IMG/VR virus record: IMGVR_UViG_3300025151_000158
Coordinates: 1 to 32,925 of that record
DNA length: 32,925 bases
Reading direction: 5' to 3' (one strand)
Origin: a virus
Below are positions 17,119 to 31,997 of the stretch, piece by piece. The notes beneath the pieces are model-generated. The model was given only the letters and a program-made list of their open reading frames with translations. It made no database searches and was not told where the DNA came from. The translations under genes and the position numbers were made by a program. Position 1 is the first letter of the stretch. Each line of letters opens with the position of its first letter.

Positions 17119-17279
17119 GATATAAAATAATTAAACGCTTCTTGTTCATCTTTCAAGTCTTTTTGATATGAAAAATTTAATTGTTGTTTTATTACGTCAA
17201 CTGATTCTAATATTTGTCTTTGATTAGAAACATCGTATTGTTCTTTTGGTTCTGGTATGTATGCTGTTATTTTTGCCAT
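17115..17279 (-). CDS. Small hypothetical phage protein
   Basis: A 54-residue protein starting MAKITAYIPEPKEQYDVSNQ with a predicted helical C-terminal half (ILESVDVIKQQLNFSYQK). It overlaps the oxygenase gene upstream by 13 bases and shares an ATGA with the gene downstream. The exact tiling and even codon use support it as real. Function unknown. Confidence 0.6.
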   Translation of the reverse strand: MAKITAYIPEPKEQYDVSNQRQILESVDVIKQQLNFSYQKDLKDEQEAFNYFIS

Positions 17280-17779
17280 TTAATATTACCACTTACTATT
17301 AGTCTAACATTATCTTTATTTGGGTCAACCGAGTGAGGTAAAAAACAAGGAAACAGTGTGCACAATCCTATCTCAGGTTTAATTTTTTTTGCATAATAAC
17401 TCAAATAAGGATAACCTGGATTATATAAATTTAAGTGAGAAGAATCTTCGGTACAATCAATAATATATGAAAAAGAATAGAAATCTTTAATTGATTCGTG
17501 AGTATGCAGATCGTGAAAATGACCCTTCTCATAATGTTGTATCCAAGCTTTTACTAAACCATATTTTTTATAACCTAGATAAATACCTACTTCTTTGAAA
17601 AAAGGATCAAGCTGTTTAAGCGTAAGATCTAACAGTTCTTTATTGGGTTCGTCATAATCATAATTATTGTTTTGTGTCTCATGATGATTGAGTTTTTGGT
17701 TTTTTACAAATTCTAAATAGTCCTTTGAAAAAGGTATTGTCTTTTTGAAATACTCAATAGAGATATCTTTTACTTGCAT
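17267..17779 (-). CDS. 2OG-Fe(II) oxygenase-like protein
   Basis: A 170-residue protein fitting a minimal double-stranded beta-helix dioxygenase. The proximal metal-binding segment is GHFHDLHTHE (86-95), followed by FSFSYII-like strands; the distal His is H149 in LFPCFLPHSV, and R159 in VRLIVSGNI would bind 2-oxoglutarate. Family members hydroxylate amino acids, peptides, nucleic acids or small molecules using O2 and 2-oxoglutarate. It stands alone between the large tail protein and a group of small genes, separate from the two clusters. The ATG shares one base with the tail gene stop. Substrate unknown; the exact pair of proximal ligands is uncertain because several His lie close together. 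Confidence 0.7.
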   Translation of the reverse strand: MQVKDISIEYFKKTIPFSKDYLEFVKNQKLNHHETQNNNYDYDEPNKELLDLTLKQLDPFFKEVGIYLGYKKYGLVKAWIQHYEKGHFHDLHTHESIKDFYSFSYIIDCTEDSSHLNLYNPGYPYLSYYAKKIKPEIGLCTLFPCFLPHSVDPNKDNVRLIVSGNIKWQK

Positions 17780-19698
17780 TATCTACGTCCGTCAGGCTGA
17801 ATGTCGAATCTAAATAACCCTAATCTCCAATTTTGATCTACAGCGTCATTTTCAATCTTAACACTAGCTAATCTTGACCTTGCACGTGTATGAATTTGTT
17901 TTGTTGTTGGTGTTACTGTAAACGGACCTAAAGGTGAAGATGCTTGTGTATCATTTGGAAAAGCTCTTAAATTTAAAGTCACCTTTGCTTGACCCGATAG
18001 AATACCGAAGTCAGGAATAAACCTTCTAATCTTAATAAAATACTCACCGTTTCCTTCAACGTCTAATTCAAAGTCTCCTGATTGTATAAAGGCTTGTATT
18101 GCAGTAGTAGTTCCATTAGCATCAACTTCGTTTAAACCACTTTCATGTTCATACAATCTACTGGCGCCTTGGTTCGTGATCCCTTGTACAGTAGGAAAAG
18201 TCCCTGTTCCTGTTGTGTAAAATCTTGTTGCATAAGGTAACGGAAATACACCTTGATCAAAATAAGTTGTTCTAGCTAAAGTTCCTACAGTCCATACATT
18301 CTCGTCATAATTATAAGTTACTACTCTATCTATATTATTTGAACCTGCTTTAGGATAAAACCAATTTATTTCACTAAACAAACTATTATGTGAAGCAAAT
18401 GTTATTTTACCTGCAGAAAAATTTAATCCTAAATTATTTCCATTTGATGTAAAAACAAAGTCTTCTACTAAACATGGTAAAGCTTTTACAGTACCGTCAA
18501 AAACAAAAAAGCCACCCTCATCACTTATCCAATATACAGCTCCGTTGACGTATACTGCAGCATTCGGACCCAAACAACCACAATTAGTCCCAACTTGTTT
18601 TATACTAAATGTAAAAGGTGGGCCTACAAATTGCATAATATAGGCGGCTGTATCTGTAAGAATAAAAATGTAATCTTTACCTTTTACCGCTGCAATAATT
18701 TCACTTCCACTATCTAATCTAAAAGTTCCAGCAGTGTTAGTAGAAGTAGGTGCATAAGTGTTTAAATCTTCTTGGTCAGAGAATCTTATAAACATTTTAT
18801 CTTGTGTCGTAGTTGTTCCAATTGTAGTTTCTGTTCCTAAATGAACTAAGTGCCTATCTCTGTCAGAAACAATGGTAGCCACACTTTTTGTAGGGTTACC
18901 AGATAAAGCTACCGCTCTTGTAACAAGAGCATTTGTATCTGCTGCAACAGGATTCCAAGAAAAACTTGGGCCGTTATGAACAGTAGCTATTAGTGTTTGA
19001 CCATAATTGTCTAATGACCACAGGCCTGGATCAAGGATTAAGTTAGAAGATGTTCTTGATGTGCCCCATGTAGATAGACCCCAAGTACCAGTACCAAAAC
19101 CATAAGCAGGCTGTTGGATGTAGTTACCTATATCAATGTATGGTGTAAGTGTTAAAGATCCATTATTTGTTACGGATCCTGTCGATTCGTTTGATGGCAT
19201 TTGAATAGTAAAAGTAGTTGTTGACGGAACCGTCAAAACTTCAAAAAGATTATCGGTAAAATTAGCAGATGTAAAACTAGTTCCTGATAATCCTGTAGCA
19301 GCAGAAAATGCTACAAGTTCTGTGATTTGTAAATTATGATCAGCTGGTGTAGTGATAGTCACTATGTTACTACCATTAGTAGTGGTGATGTCACAGTTCG
19401 CTTGTGTTCTAACTGAATCTAACGGAGTTATATCATAAAATATTTCATCATAATAAATAGCTAAAATTCTATTTGTTCCAATTGCAGAGTACCTTCTACC
19501 ATCTAAATCAAACCAATTGTGCATTTGCCTAGCAACACCTACTAAATCATTTGCATTTAATTGATTCCATCCTCCTATTTTTTCAGGCATGCCGTATCTA
19601 AAACGCACGTTATCACCATCAATCCAAACATTTTGAGCCTGGGTTGCTGTGATTTGTTTGTTAAAACCTGCTGCGAATGGTACTTTAGCTAATGGCAT
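17779..19698 (-). CDS. Large tail / nozzle-like (P22 gp10-type) structural protein
   Basis: A 639-residue protein. Its opening, FAAGFNKQITATQAQN followed by NVRFRYGMPEKIGGW (about 31-45), is typical of a family of short-tailed phage tail proteins that I associate with P22 gp10-like stabilisation or T7 gp12-like nozzle parts. The body is Thr/Asn/Gly-rich with repeated beta strands, as expected for a beta-propeller nozzle. It contains YGFGTGTWGLSTWGTS, a Trp-Gly pattern shared with the 25110-26576 protein. It follows oxygenase cluster A and is 8 bases from the preceding gene. The exact equivalence to gp10 or gp12 is uncertain. Confidence 0.55.
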   Translation of the reverse strand: MPLAKVPFAAGFNKQITATQAQNVWIDGDNVRFRYGMPEKIGGWNQLNANDLVGVARQMHNWFDLDGRRYSAIGTNRILAIYYDEIFYDITPLDSVRTQANCDITTTNGSNIVTITTPADHNLQITELVAFSAATGLSGTSFTSANFTDNLFEVLTVPSTTTFTIQMPSNESTGSVTNNGSLTLTPYIDIGNYIQQPAYGFGTGTWGLSTWGTSRTSSNLILDPGLWSLDNYGQTLIATVHNGPSFSWNPVAADTNALVTRAVALSGNPTKSVATIVSDRDRHLVHLGTETTIGTTTTQDKMFIRFSDQEDLNTYAPTSTNTAGTFRLDSGSEIIAAVKGKDYIFILTDTAAYIMQFVGPPFTFSIKQVGTNCGCLGPNAAVYVNGAVYWISDEGGFFVFDGTVKALPCLVEDFVFTSNGNNLGLNFSAGKITFASHNSLFSEINWFYPKAGSNNIDRVVTYNYDENVWTVGTLARTTYFDQGVFPLPYATRFYTTGTGTFPTVQGITNQGASRLYEHESGLNEVDANGTTTAIQAFIQSGDFELDVEGNGEYFIKIRRFIPDFGILSGQAKVTLNLRAFPNDTQASSPLGPFTVTPTTKQIHTRARSRLASVKIENDAVDQNWRLGLFRFDIQPDGRR

Positions 19699-19706
19699 AT
19701 GGCTTA

Positions 19707-20384
19707 TTATACTATTTTTTTACCAAGTATTCTATCTTTCAGTATAGAAAACTTATAGCTTAAAGTATTGGTATGGCTTGTTAGATCAAACTTTTTATTA
19801 GAAAAATGTAGTTCAATATCATCTTGTGTTTCAAAAGACATATAAAATAATGGTTCGTCCTTTTTGATAACTATTTTATCAGTCTCTTTCCTAACAGGTA
19901 AAAACATATTTAAATCAGTTGGTATATCTTTAGGATGTATTACACCAGGAAGACATTCCCAATTTCTAAACTCCCATGAAGCATTATGAAAATATAAAGG
20001 TGCATCTGATTGAATATAATTAAACATACATATCTTTATTACAAATTGATAATTATCGTTTTGTACATAATCCAACAGCTGTGAGTTACTATGAGTTGTC
20101 ACACTCATAAGATTATTAAAATCGCCATTACCCATTGCCCACTGCTCTAACCTATTATTAGACACTAGAAACTCCATATCAAAAGGAGATGTGAAAACTA
20201 ATACTTTTCTAAAATAGTTTACGAATCCAGGACAAGTTTTAATTGTAGTGCTTGTCTCTGAACGATTAAAAAGCCTTGGTATATTTTTGTAGTATTTTGG
20301 TAGATTTTGTGGAAAGCTTAAAAAATTATTCTTTAATATTTCTATGGGTATTATGTTGCTATAAATTGTAAGGTTATTTTTCAT
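19707..20384 (-). CDS. Unrecognised protein at the end of oxygenase cluster A
   Basis: A 225-residue protein with no HxD...H oxygenase motif. Notable segments are NNLTIYSNIIPIEIL, KTCPGFVNYFRKVLVFTSPFDME, PLYFHNASWEFRNWECLPG (about 130-148) and FLPVRKETDKIVIKKDEPLFYMSF. Several aromatic-rich strands suggest a compact beta fold that may bind a small molecule. It overlaps the preceding oxygenase gene by 11 bases and is therefore co-translated with the cluster. It could be a partner or downstream enzyme of the oxygenases; I do not recognise the family. Confidence 0.6.
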   Translation of the reverse strand: MKNNLTIYSNIIPIEILKNNFLSFPQNLPKYYKNIPRLFNRSETSTTIKTCPGFVNYFRKVLVFTSPFDMEFLVSNNRLEQWAMGNGDFNNLMSVTTHSNSQLLDYVQNDNYQFVIKICMFNYIQSDAPLYFHNASWEFRNWECLPGVIHPKDIPTDLNMFLPVRKETDKIVIKKDEPLFYMSFETQDDIELHFSNKKFDLTSHTNTLSYKFSILKDRILGKKIV

Positions 20385-20994
20385 TTTTAAAAGAAACAGG
20401 TAAACCTATAAAAGGTCTTGTGTCAAATTTATTATACTCTGCGTTTTCAGTATCTACAGAATTATAATGCAAAAACACTTGACCACATAATTCTCCTTCA
20501 AATTTATTTCTCCAATGTTCTAGGATGTTACCTTTGTAAACTAACATATCTCCTTCTTCTAGATTGACTTCAACATCTGTATTCTCATTCTTAATATATA
20601 TAGGCCAAGGGTCGCCTCCTAAATAAAGTGTAGTTGATATCTCACAACTAAACCTATCAGTGTGTTTTTTTAATTCATCTCCTTTTTCATAAACTCTTGA
20701 GTATGAGTATGTTGGATATAATTTTTTATTTGTTATTTTTTCCATTATATTTTTAAGCTCTATCAAAAAAACTTCATTTTCTATTGATGCATAAATTGAG
20801 AACGTACCAGGCACTTGAGCATCATTCCATGTTCCAAAATCTATACTATCTTTTTTTAAATAATTTGTTTTGAACATATGGTCAGTAACCTTTCTTCTTA
20901 ACAATAAACATCTAAGAGCAAAATCTGCTATCTCCTTAGAGACAGCGCTCTTAATTATTGTAAAACCATCTTTATGAAAATTATAATTTGTCAT
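20374..20994 (-). CDS. 2OG-Fe(II) oxygenase-like protein (HTD type)
   Basis: A 206-residue protein with an N-terminal FHKDGFTIIKSAVS, as in phytanoyl-CoA-hydroxylase-like or prolyl-hydroxylase-like enzymes. The iron-binding pair is H111 and D113 in KKHTDRFSCEISTTLYL; the distal His is H160 in LEHWRN. The usual Arg or Lys about ten residues later is not clear (GQVFLHY at 171-177), so 2-oxoglutarate binding may use another residue. GDMLVYKGN before the distal His is typical. It overlaps the preceding oxygenase gene by 14 bases. Substrate unknown. Confidence 0.75.
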   Translation of the reverse strand: MTNYNFHKDGFTIIKSAVSKEIADFALRCLLLRRKVTDHMFKTNYLKKDSIDFGTWNDAQVPGTFSIYASIENEVFLIELKNIMEKITNKKLYPTYSYSRVYEKGDELKKHTDRFSCEISTTLYLGGDPWPIYIKNENTDVEVNLEEGDMLVYKGNILEHWRNKFEGELCGQVFLHYNSVDTENAEYNKFDTRPFIGLPVSFKNEK

Positions 20995-21487
20995 GTAAGT
21001 TGAAATGTATAAATCTTAAAATATTATTATTTTTCTGTACAGTAAACATGTGGGGTAAGTACGATGGAAATATTATTAAATCACCTTGTTGCGGTTTTAT
21101 ATTTACTCTCTCTGACATAGCGGATACCTCGTCTTTATTTTCTAATTCATTTATATCTTTGTATAAAAGTGTATTAGATCTTGGATCACAAAAAATAGGG
21201 AAGGATGTATCTTTGCCTACCTCTAAAAATAAAAAACCACTTACTAAACTATTATAATGAACATGATATTCTTGATTAGAATATTCTTTAAATGTTTCTA
21301 TCCATATATCTTTAATTTTAAGAGAACTATAATCTGTTTTTAAACCCATTCTTTTTATAAGTTCAAAGCCTTTGTCCAATAAAGTGTCTGACACAATTTT
21401 AAAATCATTTTGTGAACTGTTAAATCTATCACATAAATGTTTATGATTCTCATGAAACACAGGCGTTGGAAATAGACTATACATCAT
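20981..21487 (-). CDS. 2OG-Fe(II) oxygenase-like protein (Oxy_5 type)
   Basis: A 168-residue protein. MYSLFPTPVF at the N-terminus and YHVHYNSLVSGFLFLEV (H75, H77) are signatures of the 2OG-FeII_Oxy_5 group; the distal His is H146 in PSYLPHMF and R158 lies in ILRFIHFN. I take the ATG at 21487, which makes a four-base ATGA overlap with the preceding stop and gives the family-typical N-terminus, rather than the upstream ATG at 21511. The protein at 30480-31046 is the matching member in cluster B. Substrate unknown. Confidence 0.77.
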   Translation of the reverse strand: MMYSLFPTPVFHENHKHLCDRFNSSQNDFKIVSDTLLDKGFELIKRMGLKTDYSSLKIKDIWIETFKEYSNQEYHVHYNSLVSGFLFLEVGKDTSFPIFCDPRSNTLLYKDINELENKDEVSAMSERVNIKPQQGDLIIFPSYLPHMFTVQKNNNILRFIHFNLHDKL

Positions 21488-22146
21488 TTGAAAGGGTATC
21501 CTAAAAACCAAGAGACAAGAGAATATCGAGTTCCTTGTGTCACTGGTGTTATTCTATGCCAAACAAAAGATGGAAAAACTATCACGCTTCCTTTTGGTTT
21601 GAATCTATCTTCTTTTGTAACTATGAGTGCATCATCCTTATTTCTAAATTGAAACTCTAGTTCACCTCCTTGATAGTCACATGGGTCACTTAAATTAACA
21701 CACATAGATAATTTTCTTATTTTCTTATAAAAGTTTTCTTGTTTTGGATTTTCATAAGCCCCATCAAAAGAATCTGGATGCCAATTATAAAATTGATTAA
21801 TTTTGTATTTAGTGAATTGCACTGATTCAGAATGATTCACTTCGAAGTTCCATTCTGCATTTTTGTTAGCTGTATTAACATAAGGCCAAAGTTCTTTGTA
21901 AAGCCATTCTTCGTCTATCCAAGCAACATCTGAATCTCGCTTTTTTTTAGTTTTTTCTTCAAACTCTTTTAACAACTGGTTCTTTGTAACGTCAAATCTA
22001 TTTACAAGCTGTTCTTCAATGTATTTATCGGCATCTCCTGTTGTGCCCTTTCGTTCTCTTAAATTGTTTCCGTGTGTAATAAGTTTGTTACAAAACTCTT
22101 CAGACAAAACTTTTTCGAAAACCCAATAATAATTTTTTAGAATCAT
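21484..22146 (-). CDS. PKHD-type 2OG-Fe(II) prolyl/lysyl hydroxylase-like protein
   Basis: A 220-residue protein with the most classic motif set of the cluster: H123 and D125 in NWHPDSFDG, the strand RKLSMCVNLSD, the YQGGELEF turn, and distal FPSFVWHRITPVTQGTRYSLVSW (H197, R207). This is the P4Hc/PKHD hydroxylase pattern, whose members hydroxylate prolyl or lysyl residues or small molecules. It overlaps neighbours by four bases (ATGA) on each side. The protein at 29938-30480 is the cluster B counterpart. Actual substrate cannot be told. Confidence 0.88.
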   Translation of the reverse strand: MILKNYYWVFEKVLSEEFCNKLITHGNNLRERKGTTGDADKYIEEQLVNRFDVTKNQLLKEFEEKTKKKRDSDVAWIDEEWLYKELWPYVNTANKNAEWNFEVNHSESVQFTKYKINQFYNWHPDSFDGAYENPKQENFYKKIRKLSMCVNLSDPCDYQGGELEFQFRNKDDALIVTKEDRFKPKGSVIVFPSFVWHRITPVTQGTRYSLVSWFLGYPFK

Positions 22147-22628
22147 AAATAATTAAAAACCAAAGTAACTCTTGCTTTTTTATCTGTACATGTCGTACTA
22201 GCATGAGGTTTTGAAGAATCAAATAAAACTAAATTATTCTGTTTACTCTCTATTTCTTGATCTTCAATTATGGTTTTTCCATTATTTGTATTAAAAAAGA
22301 AGAGTGCACCTTTATGTGGATATTCAAAATCAGTGTGCATTCTATGTTTAATTATTTTTTGTTGATTCAAATATAAATTTGCTTTTATTCTTATTATTGC
22401 TTTAGGTTTTAATCTATCCAAGAAAGGCCGACAAACCATGTCATAAAATTCGCTATTGGGTCTATTATCTTTATAAAATAAATGTGCTAAGAAAATATTA
22501 TCTAGAGGATCTTTTTCATCAATCACAAAGTCTTGATAAAACCACGGAAAACTATTATTCATTACAAATTTTTGTAAATTTGTAAAAGCGTCTTGTGGTA
22601 AAAAATCTTCTATGATTTCAATTGACAT
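22143..22628 (-). CDS. 2OG-Fe(II) oxygenase-like protein, first gene of cluster A
   Basis: A 161-residue protein. After EIIEDFLPQDAF comes FPWFYQDFVID and NIFLAHLFYKDN, then iron ligands H98 and D100 in HRMHTDFEYPHKGALFFFN, the LVLFDSSKPHAS segment (H142) and R153 in KARVTLVFNYL. It is clearly the same subfamily as 31506-31997, which shares the WFYQ, FAHxF and NLYL/NMYL blocks in the same order. It has no ribosome site; instead a hairpin (22630-22649) abuts the ATG. It overlaps the next gene by four bases. Substrate unknown. Confidence 0.83.
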   Translation of the reverse strand: MSIEIIEDFLPQDAFTNLQKFVMNNSFPWFYQDFVIDEKDPLDNIFLAHLFYKDNRPNSEFYDMVCRPFLDRLKPKAIIRIKANLYLNQQKIIKHRMHTDFEYPHKGALFFFNTNNGKTIIEDQEIESKQNNLVLFDSSKPHASTTCTDKKARVTLVFNYL

Positions 22629-22629
22629 G

Positions 22630-22649
22630 AGTAAGTTTATACACTTACT
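22630..22649. repeat. Inverted repeat abutting the first gene of oxygenase cluster A
   Basis: AGTAAGT (22630-22636) and ACTTACT (22643-22649) are exact reverse complements around a six-base loop. On the minus strand the hairpin ends one base before the ATG at 22628. No T-run follows on the minus strand, so it is not an obvious terminator; it may control access to the start codon or stabilise an RNA end. Confidence 0.5.
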
Positions 22650-22665: not shown

Positions 22666-23181
22666 TTAACTTGGTATTTCCCAAGAAGTAGAAGTAGAAC
22701 TCCAAACTAAAGATGTAGTATTTTCAAAATCTTGACCAATCCATCTTGCATTCTCATCATCCCAAGTCCAATTCATTGCTTTTTCACCATGGTTTCTTGT
22801 TGGAAAACCGAAGCTTGGTTCCCAATCACATCTACTAGTGTTAAACACCCAACTAGAATAAGGTTTTGGTGGTATGAATTTATCTGTTGCAGAATCGTAA
22901 GTATATCCTTGTGCAGGATAATTTCCTCTTAATGGAGTACCTCCATCAACATGTTCATTGTTTTGAGTTTTTTTATCACATCTTTTAACGTATGTGTTTT
23001 GCGGATAGTTTCCATCGTAATATGTGTCTGCAGTCCATGCATCATCAGGAATAGTAGAATTTACCCAAGTTGCGCACTGATCAGAATCAACTCCTCCATT
23101 AGCAGCGCATTGTGCATCGTCCATTATGACTACTTTAATTACAATATTATCGTCTGAATTAATTTGTGCAAAATGTGCCAT
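22666..23181 (-). CDS. Tail-fibre-associated hypothetical protein (MAHFAQI type)
   Basis: A 171-residue Trp- and Tyr-rich protein starting MAHFAQINSDDNIVIKVVIM, a start found in a widespread family of marine phage proteins beside tail fibres. It contains paired Cys (C-x10-C around NGGVDSDQC), a repeat-like NYPQNTYVKRCDKKTQN, and a C-terminal set of strands with SSWVFNTSRCDWEP and MNWTWDDENARWIGQ. I use the ATG at 23181, which shares one base with the preceding stop and gives the family N-terminus, rather than the in-frame ATG at 23196. Probably a virion or fibre-linked protein; function unknown. Confidence 0.68.
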   Translation of the reverse strand: MAHFAQINSDDNIVIKVVIMDDAQCAANGGVDSDQCATWVNSTIPDDAWTADTYYDGNYPQNTYVKRCDKKTQNNEHVDGGTPLRGNYPAQGYTYDSATDKFIPPKPYSSWVFNTSRCDWEPSFGFPTRNHGEKAMNWTWDDENARWIGQDFENTTSLVWSSTSTSWEIPS

Positions 23182-24020
23182 TATCCTGATTTCCAATTTC
23201 CATCTTTAATTGCTTCAAAGACTTGTTTAGTTGGCCATACACCAGAAGCTGAAAAAGCATCAAGTTCTCTTACGATTACAATACCATCTCCGCCACTTCT
23301 TGTGCCGCCACCGTGATTCGCTCCTGCTCCACCACCTCGGCCATCGCCTCCATTTTGGCCTCCAGGTGAACCTTCACCTCCGCCTCCTGTACCTCCAGCA
23401 TAATTTCCGTCAGAGCCGCCTCCGCCTCCAGCGTAAAAATTTCCAGGTGATGAAATTGCATTTTCTGAACCTTGTCCTCCAGCAGAAGCTCCTGGTTGGC
23501 TAGCACCTCCGCCACCTCCACGGCTATTGTTATTTCCTCCAGGATTTCCTTGAGGTGGACTTACAGGTGGAATGTTACCATTTCCTCCGCTTCCACCCTG
23601 AGAACCTCCGCCTCCCGAGCCGCCAGGTCGTCCAGCTTGGCCATTCCATGAGCCGCCACCTCCGCCTCCAGCAGATGTAATTCCAAATACACTTGAAGAA
23701 CCACCATTGTTTGCTTGTTGATAGTCACCGCAGAAACCTCCGCCTCCGCCTCCAACTGAGACAGGGTAGCTTGATCCACCTGATACAGGTTGAGCATTTG
23801 CTACAGGAGATGGATAGTTTGTTCTATATCCTCCTGCTCCTCCGCCACCAATTCGGGCTGCGCCACCGCCACCACCGACAATAAGATATTCTACAAATTT
23901 AGTGCCTGGTGATGCAGTATAAGTTCCGCCTGAAGTAAATGAATTAACTGCAGGTGATCCAGCTACAGAATTAACTGGAATGTTTGGAGTGCCTATAATA
24001 CCACCTTGTCCTTGTGCCAT
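23181..24020 (-). CDS. Glycine-rich tail fibre / adhesin-like protein
   Basis: A 279-residue protein. The N-terminal part (about 25-50) reads FTSGGTYTASPGTKFVEYLIV, the usual lead-in to phage glycine-rich domains. Residues of about 50-248 are dominated by Gly runs broken by short Ser/Asn/Pro/Ala stretches, followed by GDGIVIVRELD and a C-terminal tail. This resembles glycine-rich fibre-tip proteins that form polyglycine-II-like packs, as in S16/T2-type adhesins, so receptor binding is plausible. AGGAGGT precedes the ATG. The Gly-rich part is GC-rich for this genome because glycine codons require it, so transfer need not be invoked. Confidence 0.72.
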   Translation of the reverse strand: MAQGQGGIIGTPNIPVNSVAGSPAVNSFTSGGTYTASPGTKFVEYLIVGGGGGAARIGGGGAGGYRTNYPSPVANAQPVSGGSSYPVSVGGGGGGFCGDYQQANNGGSSSVFGITSAGGGGGGSWNGQAGRPGGSGGGGSQGGSGGNGNIPPVSPPQGNPGGNNNSRGGGGGASQPGASAGGQGSENAISSPGNFYAGGGGGSDGNYAGGTGGGGEGSPGGQNGGDGRGGGAGANHGGGTRSGGDGIVIVRELDAFSASGVWPTKQVFEAIKDGNWKSG

Positions 24021-24035
24021 TATTAAGACCTCCTA

Positions 24036-24401
24036 TTAACTTAGTTCTTCGTAATTTATAGTGATAGTCAAGTCACTAGCTGCACTAGCTCCTGCTTCGA
24101 TATTATCTCCCTCTTCTAAGTACAGAGAAGAATTTTTATCAATTAATATTAAAGTTGAGTCTGCTGCTACAGCAATTGTGCTTGCAATTTTAATTGGTGA
24201 ACCACCACTTTTTGTAATAGCCACAGTCGCATCAGCAGAGTTACTGCCGTCTATGTTAGCTATAATAATACTGTTAATTTTAAAAACTTTGTTTGATGAT
24301 GATGCGTTCGCTAAAATTTCTGTTGTTACAGTAGTGCCCAAAGTAGCTTGAACTGACTTAGCTGTAATCGTTGAAACGTTAACTAGATTTGGTGCTGCCA
24401 T
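24036..24401 (-). CDS. Small beta-rich virion protein
   Basis: A 121-residue Ala/Ser/Thr/Ile-rich protein made of alternating strands (VFKINSIIIANIDGSN, TVAITKSG, STLILIDKNSSLYL, EEGDNIEAGASA). It resembles the 116-residue protein at 16768-17118 in length, strand order and the late GDxI turn. Such proteins are usually small decoration or tail parts. AAGGAG precedes the ATG by 11 bases. No catalytic motif. Confidence 0.65.
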   Translation of the reverse strand: MAAPNLVNVSTITAKSVQATLGTTVTTEILANASSSNKVFKINSIIIANIDGSNSADATVAITKSGGSPIKIASTIAVAADSTLILIDKNSSLYLEEGDNIEAGASAASDLTITINYEELS

Positions 24402-24425
24402 TTTTTATATCTCCTTAATTATAAT

Positions 24426-25076
24426 TTATCCGAAAACTAGTGCCATTGCAATAGCTTTTCCTGTTGAAGCTACATCAGAAAAAGATAACGCTCCTGCGCC
24501 ATTTGTTGTTAACCCATTACCACTTGAGCCATCTGCTGTTGGTAAGGTCAAAGAAAAACTAGAACCCACAGTAGCAGGTGCTTTCAAACCTACATACTCT
24601 CCTCCAGTAGAATCTTCGAATCTTACTTCATTTTGATTAGTCAAATTTAATTGTGATAATTCTGAAAATAAATCTGTAACATTAGTCCCATCAGCGTAAA
24701 GAATTTTTGTACCTTTATCAGTGGTAGCAAAAGTTGGTCCTGTGCCACTTACTGTTTTAAATTGAACAGTATACGCGCCTGAAGTTGTGTTTTTGACTAT
24801 GTATACTTTTTCAATGCTGTTAGGAATTGTTACAATTTGGTTACCTGTAATAGTTCCTGTTAATTCAATTACTGCGTTTCTTGCATTTGAAAGAGTTGCA
24901 TTTGTCATTGCTAACGCTGTCGTTTGTGCGCCACCTGCAATAGAAACTGCTTCATAACCTGCAATCGCTTGTTGAACTAAGTTTAAATTTGTATTAGTTT
25001 TATCACCCCAAGTACCAGAGTTTTCCCCTGTTACCATTAATTCGAGTTTCAAATCTGTAGAATAACTTGATGCCAT
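24426..25076 (-). CDS. Tail fibre protein
   Basis: A 216-residue protein beginning SYSTDLKLELMVTGENSGTWG, then NTNLNLVQQAIAGYEAVSI. This opening is widespread in marine phage tail-fibre-like proteins. The rest is Thr/Ser/Gly-rich with beta repeats (VTIPNSIEKVYIVKNT, SSFSLTLPTADG) and ends in a short hydrophobic strand. It probably forms a trimeric fibre or fibre-attachment piece and lies in the same block as the cupredoxin-like and glycine-rich proteins. AAGGA precedes the ATG. Confidence 0.72.
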   Translation of the reverse strand: MASSYSTDLKLELMVTGENSGTWGDKTNTNLNLVQQAIAGYEAVSIAGGAQTTALAMTNATLSNARNAVIELTGTITGNQIVTIPNSIEKVYIVKNTTSGAYTVQFKTVSGTGPTFATTDKGTKILYADGTNVTDLFSELSQLNLTNQNEVRFEDSTGGEYVGLKAPATVGSSFSLTLPTADGSSGNGLTTNGAGALSFSDVASTGKAIAMALVFG

Positions 25077-25109
25077 ATATTAATCCTTGTTTTAAAAAGT
25101 ATAGTTTAT

Positions 25110-26576
25110 CTATGCTGCCTCGTCAATAACCGTCCAAGTGTTAGTTATATCTGGATCTACTACTGCCCAGGCATTTATGTTAATTGTACCAACAGAACCG
25201 TTGATTTGCAATCCTGTTACTGGTGCTTCAGCACTTGCTCCAGCTACCGCACTCGCAAGAGTTGGTGTTAGAGATATTCCTGAAGGAGAAGCTATAGTAT
25301 TTGCGTCTAATACGGCTGTTCCTAAAGAGAAAGTTGTTGATAGTCCCGTTAAAGCACCTGTGTTTGCGTCCGCTGTTACGCTTACTGAACTTACATTTGT
25401 AGTTAAGCTTTGTCCCGTAGTAATAGTGTCTACTGATGGGATTATGACTTCAACACCTGTTATTAAAGTATTTCCATCACCATTACCCCAAAGGCTATTT
25501 CCCCATGTGTCATTTCCCCAAGGGTCATTAGAAGGAGATGTAACTTCAACAATTGTAAGTTCTCCACCAAAAGCACTTCCTTGAGAAGCTGTTGCGTTTG
25601 TTCCTGATAAAGAATAAATAGAAGCTTGACCAAGAGTTCCAAGTGATGAAGACATTCCTTGTCCTGTTAAAGAAACATTCGCTTCTCCAATACCAACTTC
25701 AACACCACTTACTAACGAAATTCCGTCACCTATACCCCATAATCCATTACCCCATGCTTCATTACCCCATGGATCATTTGAAGGAGATGTAACTTCAACA
25801 GTTACAAGCTCTCCAGCAAATACTGTGCCTCTGCTCGAAGTCATGCTTTGACCTGTGACTGGAGCCTCGGCACTTGTTCCAGCAACTTCGTTTCCTACAG
25901 CTGATGTTATGGATGCGCCTGTTGGTATAATGTCTGCGTTTGCTGTAACGCTTTCAGTTCCAATAGCAAATGTACCAATGCTGATACCTGTAACAGCTGC
26001 TTCAGGACTTTCAAATTCACCCCATTCTTGAGAACCCCAAGTTAATGCACCCCATCCAACAGATGGAAAATACGAAACAGAACTTACTGCTGATGTAACG
26101 TTTACACCAGTTGCAGAAACAGATTGATCCCCTAATAAATTCCAAGTACCAAATCCCCATGTTTTTGCTCCCCATGTATTTTGAGTAATATCAAAAACAC
26201 CTCCCATGCCAATTCCATGGATATAACACAAATAATAAAAATCTGTTTCGGAAGATGGTGTTACCTCAATGTATCTTGTAGTAGCAGCATTGAATGTAGT
26301 TGTGTTTGTGTAGTTTGCTTGGTTGCTAGCTCCGTCAAGATAATAAGTTATTCCTGAAGAAATAATTCCAGACGTACTAGTATTTGTTGAAAAAATTAAC
26401 GGATGACCGTCATTAGATGCATCACTTTGTTCAAAACGTAAAGTTGCACCTGAAACCCAGCTTACAGTTCCTGGACCTGTAGAATTTCTAGCACCGTCCA
26501 AATAAAAGACGTTGCCCGTTCCTCCGCCATAAAGGTTACCCGATGCTACGGTAACTGTGTAAGTAAGTTCTGCCAT
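25110..26576 (-). CDS. Tail protein with cupredoxin-like N-terminal domain and Trp-Gly repeats
   Basis: A 488-residue protein. Residues 1-130 look like a plastocyanin/azurin-type beta sandwich: H58 in NDGHPLIF, and C117, H120 and M124 in FYYLCYIHGIGMGGVFDI, the His-Cys-His-Met set of a type 1 copper site (C-x2-H-x3-M spacing). After this come four Trp-Gly clusters (TWGAKTWGFGTW, GWGALTWGSQEWGEF, and two near-identical DPWGN...WGNGLWG-type units 83 residues apart) and Ala/Thr/Val-rich beta repeats with VTGISI/VTGQSMTSS elements. A tail-fibre role is inferred from neighbours and repeat style; metal binding is inferred from the motif. AGGAG lies ten bases before the ATG. Confidence 0.72.
   Translation of the reverse strand: MAELTYTVTVASGNLYGGGTGNVFYLDGARNSTGPGTVSWVSGATLRFEQSDASNDGHPLIFSTNTSTSGIISSGITYYLDGASNQANYTNTTTFNAATTRYIEVTPSSETDFYYLCYIHGIGMGGVFDITQNTWGAKTWGFGTWNLLGDQSVSATGVNVTSAVSSVSYFPSVGWGALTWGSQEWGEFESPEAAVTGISIGTFAIGTESVTANADIIPTGASITSAVGNEVAGTSAEAPVTGQSMTSSRGTVFAGELVTVEVTSPSNDPWGNEAWGNGLWGIGDGISLVSGVEVGIGEANVSLTGQGMSSSLGTLGQASIYSLSGTNATASQGSAFGGELTIVEVTSPSNDPWGNDTWGNSLWGNGDGNTLITGVEVIIPSVDTITTGQSLTTNVSSVSVTADANTGALTGLSTTFSLGTAVLDANTIASPSGISLTPTLASAVAGASAEAPVTGLQINGSVGTININAWAVVDPDITNTWTVIDEAA
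25532..25800. repeat. Internal direct repeat, 249-base period
   Basis: The 20-base unit AAGGAGATGTAACTTCAACA occurs at 25532-25551 and again at 25781-25800. Similar sequence continues on both sides, encoding the two EVTSPSNDPWGN units. The period equals 83 codons, so it reflects duplication of a protein module inside the tail gene. Confidence 0.8.
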
Positions 26577-26593
26577 AGCAACGGGCTCCTAAA

Positions 26594-27022: not shown

Positions 27023-27040
27023 AAAATTTCTCCTTAATAA

Positions 27041-28077: not shown

Positions 28078-28751
28078 TAGGATCCTTGTGGGTAATAAAC
28101 ATTAGGTGTTATATATACAGATGTTCTTTGTCCGTCTTCATCTAATGCTCTTTTCAATTCGTCTTCGTATAATAATTTTAATGCTTGAATTCTTTCTGGT
28201 GCTATTTTTTGAGCTAAATAGAAAGCTAGACCTGATACCATACATGGAAAGAATCTAAAAGGCATATCGGAGGTATTAGTATATGCTCCTACATCTTCAA
28301 TTCTAGCTAAATAGTAATAAAAAATATTAGTTACAGAACCTGTGCTTGGAGCTAAATATAAACTAATTGTAGGTGTAAGTTGTCTATCAACATAATATTG
28401 AGAGGGAGTGCCTGTATCAGATTTATTAGGGATAGCAATGTATTCTGATCTTGAAATTTTAGTCAAACTTTGTTGAGTTCCACCCGTTGTAGTTACAACA
28501 GCTTCTAGAACATCATTACAATCGCTCGGTGTATCGTAAGTTATTTGTCCGTTAACTAACGTTTCTGTTTTCGATTTAACTTTCCAAAGGTTTATACCTC
28601 TGTTACCCCATTCAGAAAAAAGTAAATTTAAACTTCTTCTAGCTGACTTAATATCGTTACCAGAATTAGTTCTTACGCCACATCTTTCGTAAGCTTCTTC
28701 GATAACTTCATCAATTGTGATATTAAAACTTGTAGTTCCTGATGTAGCCAT
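28077..28751 (-). CDS. P22 gp4-like head-tail adaptor / tail accessory protein
   Basis: A 224-residue protein. The N-terminal ITIDEVIEEAYERCGVRT, then SARRSLNLLFSEWGNRGINLW, is a signature opening of P22 gp4-type tail accessory factors in many phages. Later come beta strands with YDTPSDCNDVLEAVVTT and YIAIPNKSDTGTPSQYYVDR, and a C-terminal helical AFYLAQKIAPERIQALKLLYE. It should form the ring under the portal. AAGGATG precedes the ATG. The portal gene itself is not in the window. Confidence 0.77.
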   Translation of the reverse strand: MATSGTTSFNITIDEVIEEAYERCGVRTNSGNDIKSARRSLNLLFSEWGNRGINLWKVKSKTETLVNGQITYDTPSDCNDVLEAVVTTTGGTQQSLTKISRSEYIAIPNKSDTGTPSQYYVDRQLTPTISLYLAPSTGSVTNIFYYYLARIEDVGAYTNTSDMPFRFFPCMVSGLAFYLAQKIAPERIQALKLLYEDELKRALDEDGQRTSVYITPNVYYPQGS

Positions 28752-28758
28752 TTCATCC

Positions 28759-28923
28759 TTACGCTAATATTTTTTCTTGTAAATGTTTTGGTAGATTTTT
28801 TTGTTTACCAATTAGCTTTCCTGTTTTAGCCATTGTTGGTTTCTTTTTCACAGAGCCACCGCCCATGTATTTATTCATTCCACCACCCATTTTACCTTGT
28901 ACTTTAATTCTTCCATTTTTCAT
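28759..28923 (-). CDS. Small Lys/Gly-rich protein
   Basis: A 54-residue protein: MKNGRIKVQGKMGGGMNKYM then GGGSVKKKPTMAKTGK and a basic tail. AAAGGAG lies seven bases before the ATG, and the start overlaps the preceding stop by one base. High Lys and Gly with no hydrophobic core suggests an unfolded nucleic-acid-binding or assembly peptide; function unknown. Confidence 0.6.
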   Translation of the reverse strand: MKNGRIKVQGKMGGGMNKYMGGGSVKKKPTMAKTGKLIGKQKNLPKHLQEKILA

Positions 28924-29084
28924 TACATTACTCCTTTGAAGTTTCCTCCTTTAATGGCTATACCCATGCCACCACAAGAGAGTTGTTTTGGTTTAATTGG
29001 TTTTGTTTTTTTCTTATCTTTAGCTGCTTGAGTTGCTTTTCTCAATGCCTCAAGATATTTTTTATATTCTGTTGCTTGCTCCAT
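28923..29084 (-). CDS. Small Lys-rich protein
   Basis: A 53-residue protein with a helical basic first half (EYKKYLEALRKATQAAKDKK) and a Gly-rich end containing LSCGGMGIAIKGGNFKG. It is bounded by one-base TAATG overlaps at both ends, strong support for a coding role. The ending resembles the Met/Gly-rich pieces of its neighbours. Function unknown. Confidence 0.6.
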   Translation of the reverse strand: MEQATEYKKYLEALRKATQAAKDKKKTKPIKPKQLSCGGMGIAIKGGNFKGVM

Positions 29085-29476
29085 TATAGATCTATCATAC
29101 CACCATAATATAGTTTAGTAAACTCGCCTTTCGATGCAAATGTCTTAACATTTGTAGGTTTACCACCTACTCCTTGTGCTCTACTTCTTTTTCTCGCAAC
29201 CGCAGAACGCCTTTGCGATTCTGTCATTCGGGCGGCTTTTGCAGCAGGCACGCATTTGGGGTATTTTCTTTTTGATCCATCTGCAGATTTTCTTCCACAT
29301 TCTTTATATCCTCCACCTTTTTTTGGTGATCCTATATCTACCCATTTTTCTGAAAACCATTTTTTAAGTCCACCTTTTTTCATACCTGCTGGGACACAGT
29401 TTGGAACCATTTTGTTCCCTTTTTTCTTCATACCTTTTTGGACATATCCTTGCCAACATGTACCTCGTTCACTCAT
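29084..29476 (-). CDS. DUF5872-like basic Cys/Lys-rich protein
   Basis: A 130-residue protein with two halves. The first has CWQGYVQKGMKKKGN and PNCVP; the second has the WFSEKWVDIGSPKKGGGYKE, CGRK and YPKCVP blocks and a basic AARMTESQRRSAVARKRSR tail. The KWVDI..PKKGGG..CGRK..YPKC pattern is what I associate with DUF5872, seen in marine phages and some large viruses. Paired Cys may bind metal. Its start overlaps the upstream gene by four bases. A nucleic-acid-associated or virion role is inferred from charge. Confidence 0.65.
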   Translation of the reverse strand: MSERGTCWQGYVQKGMKKKGNKMVPNCVPAGMKKGGLKKWFSEKWVDIGSPKKGGGYKECGRKSADGSKRKYPKCVPAAKAARMTESQRRSAVARKRSRAQGVGGKPTNVKTFASKGEFTKLYYGGMIDL

Positions 29477-29820
29477 TTTAACAAGTCGCCATAGTACTCA
29501 ATTGAACTTGGATTTGATAAATTAATATCAGCTGAGTCATGTTTAATAAATTTTCCTTGATAAGCTGAAATAGAATCTAATTGATTTGCTTGTTTTTTGT
29601 GGGTTGCAGATGCTTTATGTAATCCTTTTGCAACTTCTTTAATTTTTATTTCGGCACCTTTACTAGCTTTTTTAGGTCCCCAATCTTTTCTTTTTGTACC
29701 CGATGGATCTTTTATTTTGCCCGCACAAATCTTACTAGCATATGCATTCGCGTATGCACTGGGATATACCTTAAATTTTCTTTTAGCGGCCGCTTTGCCT
29801 CTAGCACATAGTTTTGTCAT
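29473..29820 (-). CDS. Basic Cys/Lys-rich protein related in style to DUF5872
   Basis: A 115-residue protein starting MTKLCARGKAAAKRKFKVYP, with SAYANAYASKICAGKIKDPSG (trimmed here) and a KDWGPKKASKG segment. The KxCARGKAAAKRKF...KICAGK pattern is common in marine phages. I use the ATG at 29820 instead of the in-frame ATG at 29910: the added 30 residues lie inside a better-supported small gene (29801-29941) in another frame. Its stop overlaps the next ATG by four bases. Positive charge and paired Cys suggest nucleic-acid or virion association. Confidence 0.65.
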   Translation of the reverse strand: MTKLCARGKAAAKRKFKVYPSAYANAYASKICAGKIKDPSGTKRKDWGPKKASKGAEIKIKEVAKGLHKASATHKKQANQLDSISAYQGKFIKHDSADINLSNPSSIEYYGDLLK

Positions 29821-29941
29821 AGTGTCTAAGCCTTTTTCGGTTGTACAACTTCTTTGATTGTACCACTTTTTGTTTGAACAGTAAACTTCCCACCCTAAGC
29901 ATTTTAGCAATAGGATTTCTCTTTTTTTCTTTATTTTTCAT
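29801..29941 (-). CDS. Tiny basic protein, NPIAK type
   Basis: A 46-residue protein beginning MKNKEKKRNPIAKMLRVGSL, then FKQKVVQSKKLYNRKR. The NPxAK...FxxKVVxxKKxYxRK layout is one I recognise from small phage proteins of unknown function. Its ATG overlaps the preceding oxygenase stop by four bases (ATGA), and it overlaps the next gene by 20 bases. This explains the apparent gap and argues for the short start of the next gene. Confidence 0.68.
   Translation of the reverse strand: MKNKEKKRNPIAKMLRVGSLLFKQKVVQSKKLYNRKRLRHYDKTMC
29857..29885 (-). promoter_or_regulatory. Possible extended -10 promoter inside the tiny basic gene
   Basis: On the minus strand TTTACT (29885-29880), 17 bases, then TGG-TACAAT with TACAAT at 29862-29857. 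The -10 box matches 5 of 6 and has the extended TGn. It would start transcripts near 29850, feeding the basic-protein and adaptor genes. It lies in coding sequence, so it may be chance. Confidence 0.33.
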
Positions 29942-30480
29942 CTTAATCTCGGTCCTTTAAAAAATATTACCAGAGTTCTTCTCGATCCGTAAGTGACAGG
30001 TAATACTTTGTGAGGATGATAAGATTTAAATAAAATTGCGTCACCGCCTTGTGAAAATTCAGTTATTTTATTTTTTTGATGTATTAGTTGAAACTCTCCT
30101 CCTTCATACTTTGATTCTGAAAGATTAATTATAAAAGTAAGTTTTAAATCAAATGGTTTATCTCTTTCACCATCCACATGCCAATCATATTCTCCTTTTT
30201 CAGAACCATCATAATCATTAAGAGTTGCAAATTCGTTAGGTGTAATTTCAAATATATCCATACCAAAGTTGAAAGAGTTAACAGTTACAGCAGCGTTGAT
30301 ACATGGTTTTATTTCATCCCAAATGTGACCTAATTGAATTGTCTTAACATTTGTAATTTTCGTTGTATTAGCTGCACGTTTATCCTCACAATCCTCTACA
30401 TAATAATTAATTTTTTCATTAAGTTTTTTTACATCAGGTGGAGATATTATTTTATTCCAATACCAATAAGTGAAAGACAT
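29938..30480 (-). CDS. PKHD-type 2OG-Fe(II) oxygenase, last gene of cluster B
   Basis: A 180-residue protein with H101 and D103 in EYDWHVDGERDKPFDLKLTF, the YEGGEFQL turn, and distal YHPHKVLPVTYGSRRTLVIFF (H157, R167 or R168). This is the same subfamily as 21484-22146 but with a shorter N-terminal part. The V-T-x-G-S/T-R spacing after the distal His is shared by both. The ATG overlaps the preceding stop by one base, and its stop overlaps the next ATG by four. Substrate unknown; prolyl/lysyl-type hydroxylation is the family default. Confidence 0.87.
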   Translation of the reverse strand: MSFTYWYWNKIISPPDVKKLNEKINYYVEDCEDKRAANTTKITNVKTIQLGHIWDEIKPCINAAVTVNSFNFGMDIFEITPNEFATLNDYDGSEKGEYDWHVDGERDKPFDLKLTFIINLSESKYEGGEFQLIHQKNKITEFSQGGDAILFKSYHPHKVLPVTYGSRRTLVIFFKGPRLR

Positions 30481-31046
30481 TAATTATAATTAAAAGAAAA
30501 AGACATTCTTTTATCCTCTGTTAAATTTGGTTTTACTCTGTGTTTTAACCAACTTGGAAACAAAATCAATAGGTTATCTTCAGGAACTACAAAATATTTA
30601 GAAGAATTGTATATATTATATTCTTTATGTTTAATCTTTTGTAAATGATATTCTATGGTTTCAAAATCATTTACAAATTCAATTGCACCAGAATCTTTTT
30701 TTGTTTGTACATAAAAAACACCAGATATAAAAGAATCTATATGACAATGAAGTATATTATAATTTCCATAGTAATTAATGTTAGCCCATAAATTGTCAAG
30801 TTTTGTATTTTCAATATTAAAAACTTTTTTAAATATTTCTACATTTTTATTTAATTCCTCAATTAATTCTTGAAGTTCTTCTTGTTTATTATCTAAGTCT
30901 TTTGATTGAAAGCCACCTTCATTTGATATTACTCTTTTGTTATTCTGTCTTTCTATATTTTCTATGAACAATTTTAATTTATTTAAATTTAAATTTAATT
31001 TTTTAATATAGATAGGAGTGCTAAAAATGTTAATTAGTTCATTCAT
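30480..31046 (-). CDS. 2OG-Fe(II) oxygenase-like protein (Oxy_5 type)
   Basis: A 188-residue protein. It opens with INIFSTPIYIKKL, has a Lys/Glu/Asn-rich helix (about 55-85), and the metal-binding ILHCHIDSFISGVFYV (H100, H102). The distal His is H169 in FPSWLKHRV, and R180 in KRMSFSFNYN may bind 2-oxoglutarate. This is the 2OG-FeII_Oxy_5 layout, matching 20981-21487. It overlaps the preceding gene by eight bases. Substrate unknown. Confidence 0.78.
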   Translation of the reverse strand: MNELINIFSTPIYIKKLNLNLNKLKLFIENIERQNNKRVISNEGGFQSKDLDNKQEELQELIEELNKNVEIFKKVFNIENTKLDNLWANINYYGNYNILHCHIDSFISGVFYVQTKKDSGAIEFVNDFETIEYHLQKIKHKEYNIYNSSKYFVVPEDNLLILFPSWLKHRVKPNLTEDKRMSFSFNYN

Positions 31047-31506
31047 TTGTTTTAAAAGCTATTGATATTCTTGGTAAACTTGAATTTGAAGATAATCCTC
31101 TATGTGATAATTCTGATGGAAAAGCTATAAGTTGATTTTGAATAAAATTAATCTTTTTATCTTTTATTTCTAAACAGCCTTCTCCTTTTTGTAATGTATC
31201 TGAAACCATAAGTAAGTATGTCGTTGTCCCATTATCTTGGTGCCATGAACCACTCATGTCGGAGTGTTGAATATTTGCATAAGCTTCAATTACTTTTATA
31301 TTTTTCTTAAAAGTTTTAATTAACTTAAAATGTAAAAATTCAAGATCTTCTTTTTTCAAGTCTGATCTATAAAATTGTTTATGTTTTGGATCTGATATTA
31401 TAGATTTTTCACCATAGTAGTGAGGGTAGTTATAAAGTATTTTATAATGTAAATATTTTATATAATCATCATCTAACCAATCATTTATGCAAACTATGTT
31501 AGACAT
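31039..31506 (-). CDS. 2OG-Fe(II) oxygenase-like protein (HQD type)
   Basis: A 155-residue protein with H89 and D91 in SWHQDNGTTTYLLMV, the GEGCLEI strand, LIAFPSELSHRG (H135) and R146 in LPRISIAFKTN. The WHxD...G.. layout and the FPS..xHRG distal motif are good evidence of a dioxygenase fold. It has a different N-terminal helical part from its neighbours and is not an obvious match to 20374-20994. The ATG overlaps the preceding stop by one base. Substrate unknown. Confidence 0.8.
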   Translation of the reverse strand: MSNIVCINDWLDDDYIKYLHYKILYNYPHYYGEKSIISDPKHKQFYRSDLKKEDLEFLHFKLIKTFKKNIKVIEAYANIQHSDMSGSWHQDNGTTTYLLMVSDTLQKGEGCLEIKDKKINFIQNQLIAFPSELSHRGLSSNSSLPRISIAFKTNE

Positions 31507-31997
31507 TAAAAATAATTAAAATTTATGACTATCCTGTTTGGTGTAGAAAGCTGAGTTTTAACTCTATGTTGTGTCTCACTTGGAAATATAACTATTCTAT
31601 TTTCTTCTGATTGAACAAATTCATTAGTATCTTTAAATTCTGTTCCACCATCATTAGAATTTACATAAAGAACTGCAGTGGTTGCACCTTTTAATTTATT
31701 ATCAGTATGCCAATTAGAATAATATCTTTCACCAGTTCTTAAATACATGTTAGCTCTCACACTAATGGTCGCTGCAACCTTCAATCTTTCTAAACACTCT
31801 ACTATAAAAGGATCATAAAATGGAGAGTTAATTGTATTTTTGTGAAAAAAAATATGGGCAAAGTAAAAATTATCAGGATTTTTACCAGTCTGTACCATGT
31901 GTTTTTGGTAAAACCAATTTATATCACTACTTGTTAGAATGTTTCTAAACTGATTCCACTTAGATCTTTCTATGAAATTGTCAATTACTCGAAGCAT
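31506..31997 (-). CDS. 2OG-Fe(II) oxygenase-like protein, first gene of cluster B
   Basis: A 163-residue protein with INWFYQKHMVQTGKN, NFYFAHIFFHKN, ANMYLRTGERYYSNWHTDNK (H97, D99), FPSETQHRV (H144) and R155 in NRIVINFNYF. It shares these blocks in order with 22143-22628, and both lead their cluster. A hairpin (32001-32039) begins four bases before the ATG, and the only ribosome-site-like GGA sits in the hairpin arm. Substrate unknown. Confidence 0.85.
   Translation of the reverse strand: MLRVIDNFIERSKWNQFRNILTSSDINWFYQKHMVQTGKNPDNFYFAHIFFHKNTINSPFYDPFIVECLERLKVAATISVRANMYLRTGERYYSNWHTDNKLKGATTAVLYVNSNDGGTEFKDTNEFVQSEENRIVIFPSETQHRVKTQLSTPNRIVINFNYF

Follow-up and report, generated by a model that had tools for sequence, protein, structure and literature searches.

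Nine genes with the metal-binding motifs of Fe(II)/2-oxoglutarate (2OG) oxygenases lie on the minus strand of the viral DNA stretch IMGVR_UViG_3300025151_000158 (an IMG/VR record; its full 32,925 bases are here called the window), whose record class, linear, is often that of a fragment. Judged by its genes, the window is a piece of an HTVC023P-like pelagiphage genome. HTVC023P and HTVC027P are isolated pelagiphages of SAR11, the commonest bacteria of the ocean; the 639-amino acid tail protein of the window (17779-19698) has 55.0% identity to that of HTVC023P and 54.4% to that of HTVC027P, and the gene order around the oxygenases matches that of the HTVC023P type. Two contigs from other metagenomes (61,525 and 60,868 bases) encode proteins that share 93-99% identity with window proteins. 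Profile searches with four PHROG families (phrog_81, phrog_61, phrog_274, and phrog_2954) found the same nine oxygenase genes in both contigs and no tenth gene of these families, other oxygenase families lying outside the search; an assembly artefact is ruled out, since contigs from other metagenomes hold the same set of nine.

The genes form two clusters and a singleton, as an earlier sequence-only reading of this DNA had placed them, and all nine open reading frames (ORFs) were found at the starts given there, without internal stops. Cluster A is led by a phrog_274 oxygenase (22143..22628; H98xD100...H142...R153), followed by a PKHD-like 2OG-FeII_Oxy_3 protein of phrog_61 (21484..22146; H123xD125...H197...R207; Pfam 55.4 bits, cut-off 27), a phrog_81 2OG-FeII_Oxy_5 protein (20981..21511; H83xH85...H154...R166; 54.1 bits, cut-off 27) that has a TTG start, with ATG codons only further inside the ORF, and a phrog_2954 protein labelled ferrochelatase but predicted to have the oxygenase fold (20374..20994; H111xD113...H160, with Gln172). 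The singleton is a phrog_81 oxygenase (17267..17779; H92xH94...H149...R159; phrog_81 E value 2.6e-26; Pfam 25.1 bits, below the cut-off of 27) overlapping the end of the tail gene by one base. Cluster B consists of a phrog_274 oxygenase (31506..31997; H97xD99...H144...R155; Pfam 2OG-FeII_Oxy_3 34.1 bits, cut-off 27), a divergent phrog_274 oxygenase (31039..31506; H89xD91...H135...R146; phrog_274 3.2e-18; Pfam 18 bits, below the cut-off), a phrog_81 2OG-FeII_Oxy_5/TIGR02466 protein (30480..31046; H100xH102...H169...R180; Pfam 81.9 bits; TIGR02466 103 bits, cut-off 62.5), and a PKHD-like 2OG-FeII_Oxy_3 protein of phrog_61 (29938..30480; H101xD103...H157...R167; 48 bits, cut-off 27). Within the clusters adjacent genes overlap by 1-28 bases. 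The same subfamilies do recur in both clusters, with a phrog_274 gene leading each and phrog_81 and phrog_61 genes in both. Genes are cited below by their start positions.

Pfam 2OG-FeII_Oxy_3 or 2OG-FeII_Oxy_5 matches exceed the curated cut-off in five of the nine (20981, 21484, 29938, 30480, and 31506) and fall below it in three (17267, 22143, and 31039); neither family matches 20374. The metal triad is kept in all nine, as HxD...H in six and HxH...H in the three phrog_81 genes, and the later arginine, the residue usual for the 2OG carboxylate, is present in eight, with glutamine in 20374. As to whether most of the set lacks the double-stranded beta-helix or the ligands, a doubt that the sequence-only reading had itself raised, the fold is backed by structure models for 20374 and 22143 only, by Pfam matches above the cut-off for five others, and by the phrog_81 and phrog_274 profiles for 17267 and 31039. 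Two histidines with an aspartate, histidine, or glutamate are also present in 683 of 719 profile matches from the fetched loci (phrog_81, 213/226; phrog_61, 157/160; phrog_274, 194/205; phrog_2954, 119/128), matches that are not independent, as the window itself, the named phages, and contigs fetched more than once through overlapping loci are counted among them; some of the misses are ORFs truncated by contig ends, and the profiles were built partly from these sequences. The three-histidine site (HxH instead of HxD) of 17267, 20981, and 30480 is common to nearly all of their phrog_81 homologues in the fetched loci. The ratio of nonsynonymous to synonymous substitution rates (dN/dS) is 0.01-0.19 for all nine genes, as under purifying selection, when the window is compared with two relatives, a third comparison set having returned values identical to those of the second. 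Chance resemblance and pseudogenes are ruled out by the intact ORFs in the relatives together with these dN/dS values, and the nine genes are almost certainly intact members of the Fe(II)/2OG oxygenase fold, with activity and use of 2OG predicted. The NCBIfam models NF003974 and NF003972 (YbiX/PiuC PKHD-type) match 21484 and 29938 with at best 54.5 bits (NF003974 on 21484) against a cut-off of 143, so that neither was assigned to the PKHD-type hydroxylases proper.

The name attached to phrog_2954, ferrochelatase, is wrong, and the structure model of 20374 places its product in the oxygenase fold. The AlphaFold model, made with a 54-row alignment, has a predicted local distance difference test score (pLDDT) of 96.5 and a predicted template modelling score of 0.91. 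Its Foldseek matches include Pseudomonas putida prolyl-4-hydroxylase (E value 4.2e-9), a Dictyostelium prolyl hydroxylase (PHD), SnoN, and PHD2, and all 50 matches listed are oxygenase-type enzymes; on realignment, 1000 of 1000 chains had Z of at least 5, with a best Z of 16.8. The models of both 20374 and 22143 are double-stranded beta-helices with Z of 14-16 to PHD2, P. putida prolyl-4-hydroxylase, and PiuC; HemH, by contrast, presumably has an unlike, alpha/beta fold. All 54 alignment rows, and all 60 bacterial genome contig sequences aligned to the profile, have H111, D113, and H160. Gln172 is invariant at what we take to be the position of the usual co-substrate arginine, and R100, Y102, R114, and R162 are also conserved. 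Sequence searches of the PDB with the 20374 and phrog_274 profiles gave no significant match, and an hhalign comparison of phrog_2954 with the phrog_274 profile (E value 0.0037, probability 8.9) was not used as proof.

That 20374 and its relatives are true ferrochelatases supplying heme, as the label in phage records, in PHROGs, and in the accessible parts of two papers (PMC9599517 and PMC11561400) has it, has next to no chance of being right, given the modelled oxygenase fold, the true ferrochelatase profile PF00762 in 0 of 11 phage records versus 8 of 14 control genomes, and the phrog_2954 profile in 0 of 14 controls. No ferrochelatase match was found at E 0.01 in any of the 54 members of the 20374 alignment. 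The name is widespread: 156 phage records match 20374, and many of the 40 listed are named ferrochelatase, while the syn9 homologue is 'gp54' in GenBank and 'ferrochelatase' in RefSeq. A P-SSM2 gene labelled ferrochelatase (140630-141223) is a phrog_61 match. According to the accessible text of Wittmers et al. 2022 (PMC9599517), a phage with a 'ferrochelatase' always has an adjacent 2OG oxygenase, the two being treated as partners in a heme-enzyme reading; PMC11561400 (2024), likewise available in part, finds seasonal viruses to be enriched in phrog61 and phrog2954. Because 20374 has the oxygenase fold in its model and no PF00762 match, the published heme pairing looks like oxygenases beside an oxygenase. 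A literature search met no printed correction of the phage ferrochelatase label, its single match being a paper that, to judge by the title, concerns a diplomonad; most subscription papers were outside its reach, and absence from print is not shown by it.

The second misleading name, 'DNA endonuclease V' for phrog_274, is also wrong, and the genes that carry it are oxygenases, the fold having been modelled for 22143. Its AlphaFold model (42-row alignment, pLDDT 95.8) matches PHDs, aspartyl hydroxylase, and PiuC, the last with the best Z (15.8). Identity with the T4 DenV endonuclease V was rejected for 22143, 31039, and 31506 on two grounds, the lack of a match to PF03013 (Pyr_excise), the genuine DenV domain, and the double-stranded beta-helix of the 22143 model. 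PF03013 has no match in the window and one match each in three of 11 records (P-SSM2, P-HM2, and Mosig), where, in the regions viewed, its position is not that of the genes labelled endonuclease V, which match phrog_274. In P-SSM2 (131640-132170) and P-HM2 (129598-130098) the PF03013 matches are annotated 'DNA binding protein', yet the denV name stands on other genes. Among the matches listed, many records of cyanophages and pelagiphages have genes labelled ferrochelatase or endonuclease V. In its accessible text, a 2010 review (PMC2984593) gives a denV homologue as unknown in cyanophages and notes 2OG-type proteins in Syn9, proposed there as a repair route.

Cluster A occupies an island between tail-fibre/adhesin genes and the phrog_3287 virion structural protein gene (the tail gene, minus strand; phrog_3287 match 1.9e-89), with the singleton just past it; cluster B is a second set between endolysin and tail genes. 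The tail gene forms the downstream border of the island and the gene for a phrog_7759 protein (22666..23196, minus strand) the upstream border. Next to the latter lie tail-fibre/adhesin-like genes (23181..26576, minus strand) for a Gly-rich protein (Gly_rich_2, 60.3 bits), a small protein, a phrog_31104 protein, and a 488-amino acid repeat protein; the adhesin role of this group is putative. The frame usually runs from tail genes through adhesin-like genes, phrog_7759, island, and tail gene to a small protein and two glycosyltransferase-like genes. In the window the last two are a Group 1 glycosyltransferase (15485-16423, minus strand) and a phrog_1574 protein read as family-2-like, with no Pfam match (14746-15504, minus strand).

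With the tail gene as anchor, the 80 loci nearest by that gene were compared, at least 598 of the first 600 candidates being relatives; selection by likeness to the window tail gene favours its closest kin. Where at least 5 kb upstream of the tail gene was available, oxygenases were present within 9 kb in 34 of 34 loci, and at least three of them in 32. Shorter upstream stretches had an oxygenase in 20 of 21 loci (2-5 kb), 8 of 10 (0.7-2 kb), and 6 of 15 (less), and downstream of the tail gene one was found in 1 of 37 loci with at least 2 kb. The phrog_7759 gene is present in 27 of the 34 loci, and in all 27 at least two oxygenases stand between it and the tail gene. The 34 loci have 31 distinct family orders, and island content differs even between phages with tail proteins 95-98% identical (L021/L025, L040/L046/L050, and L059/L060). 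In these phages oxygenase genes enter and leave the island, and nearly every lineage has a different combination.

The sequence-only reading called nine such genes a heavy investment for a compact genome. The number is high for a phage of about 60 kb: with the four family profiles, whole records gave four in HTVC023P, three in HTVC027P, four in 023Pt_psg01, and three in HTVC033P, and the viral contigs G004 and G003 gave six and none. An exceptional load was rejected on the strength of the island in 34 of 34 loci, of two loci with nine oxygenases each (L076 and L077, probably the same phage, with 100% identical tail proteins), and of HTVC008M, whose oxygenase density per kb is the same as that of the window phage. 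Larger counts were obtained in HTVC008M (21 places, two of which abut and may be one gene), Mosig (12), and P-SSM2 (23), and P-HM2 had seven. Nine is thus high for a podovirus and not exceptional. A 6.9 kb viral contig (L191) has eight oxygenase-type matches in a row, two of them like 29938.

The recurrence of subfamilies had been taken as a sign of either cluster duplication or repeated recruitment. Although the subfamilies are shared, no cluster A gene is sister to a cluster B gene in the phrog_274, phrog_61, or phrog_81 trees (75, 65, and 80 rows). These were built by a quick method with few starred branches, rows were thinned at 75% identity, and the phrog_81 tree has long rows; the phrog_61 tree took its 65 rows from 133 matches without a cut, and the others used the first 75 of 178 (phrog_274) and the first 80 of 179 (phrog_81) matches, low-scoring relatives being missing. 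By the approximately unbiased test, forced pairing was rejected at 0.05 for 21484/29938 (phrog_61, p 0.0295) and 20981/30480 (phrog_81, p 0.0348), and not for 17267/30480 (phrog_81, p 0.0798), 31039/31506 (phrog_274, p 0.11), or 22143/31506 (phrog_274, p 0.19); with two of five tests below 0.05 and none far below, this is modest evidence. The 31039 gene falls in a starred five-row set with an HTVC008M gene (Shimodaira-Hasegawa approximate likelihood ratio test 99), and 31506 belongs to a less well supported group in which HTVC008M genes also occur. The order of cluster A (274-61-81-2954) is that of 023Pt_psg01, and that of cluster B (274-274-81-61) was seen in the species of the window only, where the 14 loci are overlapping fetches. 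Duplication of cluster A into cluster B has the shared subfamilies and the three unrejected pairings in its favour, but it is very unlikely in view of the missing sister pairs, the two rejected pairings, and a gene order that differs, cluster B having no phrog_2954 gene and a second phrog_274 gene. Separate recruitment of cluster B fits better with the 023Pt_psg01-like order of cluster A and the grouping of 31039 and 31506 with HTVC008M genes, and is modestly favoured by the sequence comparisons.

Two neighbouring genes deserve separate mention. The phrog_7084 gene between island and tail gene (19707..20384, minus strand) encodes 225 amino acids and is conserved within the species (dN/dS 0.07-0.08); considered as a possible tenth oxygenase, it met relatives in that species only in the one scan made, which gave no useful alignment. 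The tail-fibre-like protein at 25110-26576 (minus strand) has no Pfam match at 0.01 and no PHROG match at 0.001; by eye its N-terminal part looks cupredoxin-like (YYLCYIHGIGM, a possible type 1 copper site) and is followed by repeated WGN motifs.

Relatives of 20374 also occur in bacteria, where a chosen sample of neighbourhoods was viewed and Pfam was run on genes from 12 of 59 loci. At least three oxygenase matches are present in 18 of the 59, several of which resemble phage contigs binned with bacteria. On bacterial contigs (L239, L240, L243, L246, and others) the 2954-type gene often stands directly beside a phrog_61-like oxygenase gene, as in phages, an arrangement that suggests an old functional pair. 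In Mycobacterium persicum (L238:7995-8936) a 2954-type gene follows a LanM-type lanthipeptide synthetase gene with an ABC transporter gene nearby, and its product is possibly a peptide-tailoring enzyme. Another lies beside SapC (L223), and in L239 (and, by eye, L246) the gene follows those for a very long repetitive protein and an Lcl_C protein; the repetitive protein of L239 reads by eye as filamentous-haemagglutinin-like, with no Pfam match.

The function proposed for these genes, to which a probability of roughly 0.4 is given, is the hydroxylation of tail or adhesin proteins. The oxygenases would be made together with the tail genes, each would hydroxylate particular residues, most likely of phage tail or adhesin proteins, the hydroxylated residues would perhaps be sites for the two nearby glycosyltransferases, and a changed set of oxygenases would change the surface of the virion or the infected cell. 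This proposal draws on the position of the island beside the same tail gene in the 34 loci with at least 5 kb and in 20 of the 21 with 2-5 kb, on the HTVC008M and Mosig clusters that also adjoin tail-fibre or baseplate genes, on the resemblance of both models to prolyl hydroxylases and PiuC, on the 31 orders and the overlaps within clusters, and on the bacterial relatives beside the lanthipeptide synthetase, SapC, and the long repetitive and Lcl_C proteins. Several observations weigh against it. Enzymes of this fold also act on small molecules, antibiotics, and nucleic acids (SnoN, EvdO1, and human ABH8 are in the Foldseek lists), and P-SSM2 has five such oxygenase genes and a 'ferrochelatase' among the replication genes gp45, gp44, dam, and gp62. 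In 5 of the 34 loci, as in HTVC027P, all island genes point against the tail gene. Other bacterial neighbourhoods contain radical-SAM/UPF0004 and PhoH genes (L236), a UPF0176 rhodanese gene (L259), or a SET-domain gene (L245), those of L236 and L259 presumably indicating RNA modification. G003, a 57,381-base contig (locus L054) whose tail protein is 63% identical, has no match to the four families; its ends retain adhesin-like genes, tail gene, and glycosyltransferases in the same arrangement, two other genes standing before the tail gene, and it is possibly a natural islandless relative, unless genes were lost between the contig ends.

A rather unlikely alternative, and the one that survives best, is that the enzymes target the host, acting on its proteins or metabolism (a translation factor or its iron and 2OG economy, for instance), and that the tail site is merely tolerant of insertion. 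The P. putida prolyl-4-hydroxylase structure that tops the Foldseek matches of the 20374 model is a complex with EF-Tu; according to the accessible part of PMC12753301, host iron-uptake genes go up on HTVC027P infection; cyanophages keep such genes in other modules; and G003 has no island. The same tail-side position in 34 of 34 loci would not be expected of general metabolic genes, however, and pathway partner genes were not seen in the island. Of similar standing, and doubtful, is a fuller version of the tail proposal, namely that HTVC023P-type pelagiphages carry a hypervariable protein-hydroxylation locus. Its tail-side slot of oxygenase genes, among them the misnamed 'ferrochelatase' clade with its unusual co-substrate site, would be reshuffled to give a lineage-specific pattern of tail-adhesin hydroxylation, an enzyme counterpart to sequence-diversified receptor-binding proteins.

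Modification or repair of nucleic acids, whether AlkB-like, Tet-like, or by RNA hydroxylation, is improbable. The best PDB sequence matches, both non-significant, are a Naegleria Tet-like dioxygenase for the 20374 profile (E 0.17) and a DNA N6-methyladenine demethylase for phrog_274 (E 0.37), and 1 of the 54 members of the 20374 alignment matches 2OG-FeII_Oxy_2, a family which we take to be linked to AlkB, at E 0.001. The Syn9 repair proposal, the P-SSM2 copies among replication genes, and the L236 and L259 neighbours point the same way, but no AlkB- or Tet-type Pfam family is above its cut-off in any of the nine (Oxygenase-NA gives 17.6 bits for 29938, cut-off 26.2), and the tail-module position and greatly varying number and order are unlike those of repair genes. 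About as improbable is a role, shared with the adjacent glycosyltransferases, in modifying polysaccharide or small molecules at the cell surface. In its favour, all 22 loci with at least 3 kb downstream have homologues of both glycosyltransferase-like genes after the tail gene, a bacterial 2954-61 pair adjoins a glycosyltransferase (L222), and a P-SSM2 oxygenase lies between glycosyltransferase genes. Against it, 023Pt_psg01 and HTVC033P have islands but yielded no homologue of either gene (a point that also weighs against the tail proposal), and G003 has both genes and no island.

Comparison with known systems separates what is new from what is not. The accessible text of PMC9599517 describes eight non-orthologous 2OG oxygenase genes across HTVC023P-type pelagiphages, near each other and in variable order; there they are nearby but not adjacent, whereas those of the window overlap. 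Beyond that part of the account are the modelled oxygenase fold of the 'ferrochelatase', the counting of position and shuffling, and the second cluster elsewhere in the genome. The pelagimyophages HTVC008M and Mosig and the cyanomyophages have the same PHROG families, also clustered, and in HTVC008M and Mosig beside tail-fibre or baseplate genes, but their genomes are 2-4 times larger and some cyanophage copies are among replication genes. PiuC/YbiX resemble the window proteins in the NF003974/NF003972 matches of 21484 and 29938 and in that PiuC ranks with the best fold matches for both 22143 and 20374, and differ in that the curated cut-offs are far above the window scores. The fold of the two models is shared by P. 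putida prolyl-4-hydroxylase and human PHD2, as is, we assume, their HxD...H motif; identity is about 10-20%, and 20374 has glutamine at the usual arginine position. Clusters of this kind were already known, and the window is a rich example; new here are the two label corrections, a hypervariable island whose occurrence was counted and which one relative seems to lack, and the probably separate origins of the clusters.

In its accessible part, PMC12753301 reports HTVC023P-type phages as the most abundant known pelagiphages and names the gp73 oxygenase as one possible reason for the induction of host iron uptake in the HTVC027P transcriptome. If the 20374 type is an oxygenase, the 'ferrochelatase' statements of PMC9599517 and PMC11561400, so far as their accessible texts go, concern a single superfamily of enzymes, and the ground for the heme idea falls away. 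With the island, what was loosely an 'auxiliary metabolic gene' becomes a question that experiments can address: what is hydroxylated, and why nearly every lineage has its own set of these enzymes in one place beside the tail.

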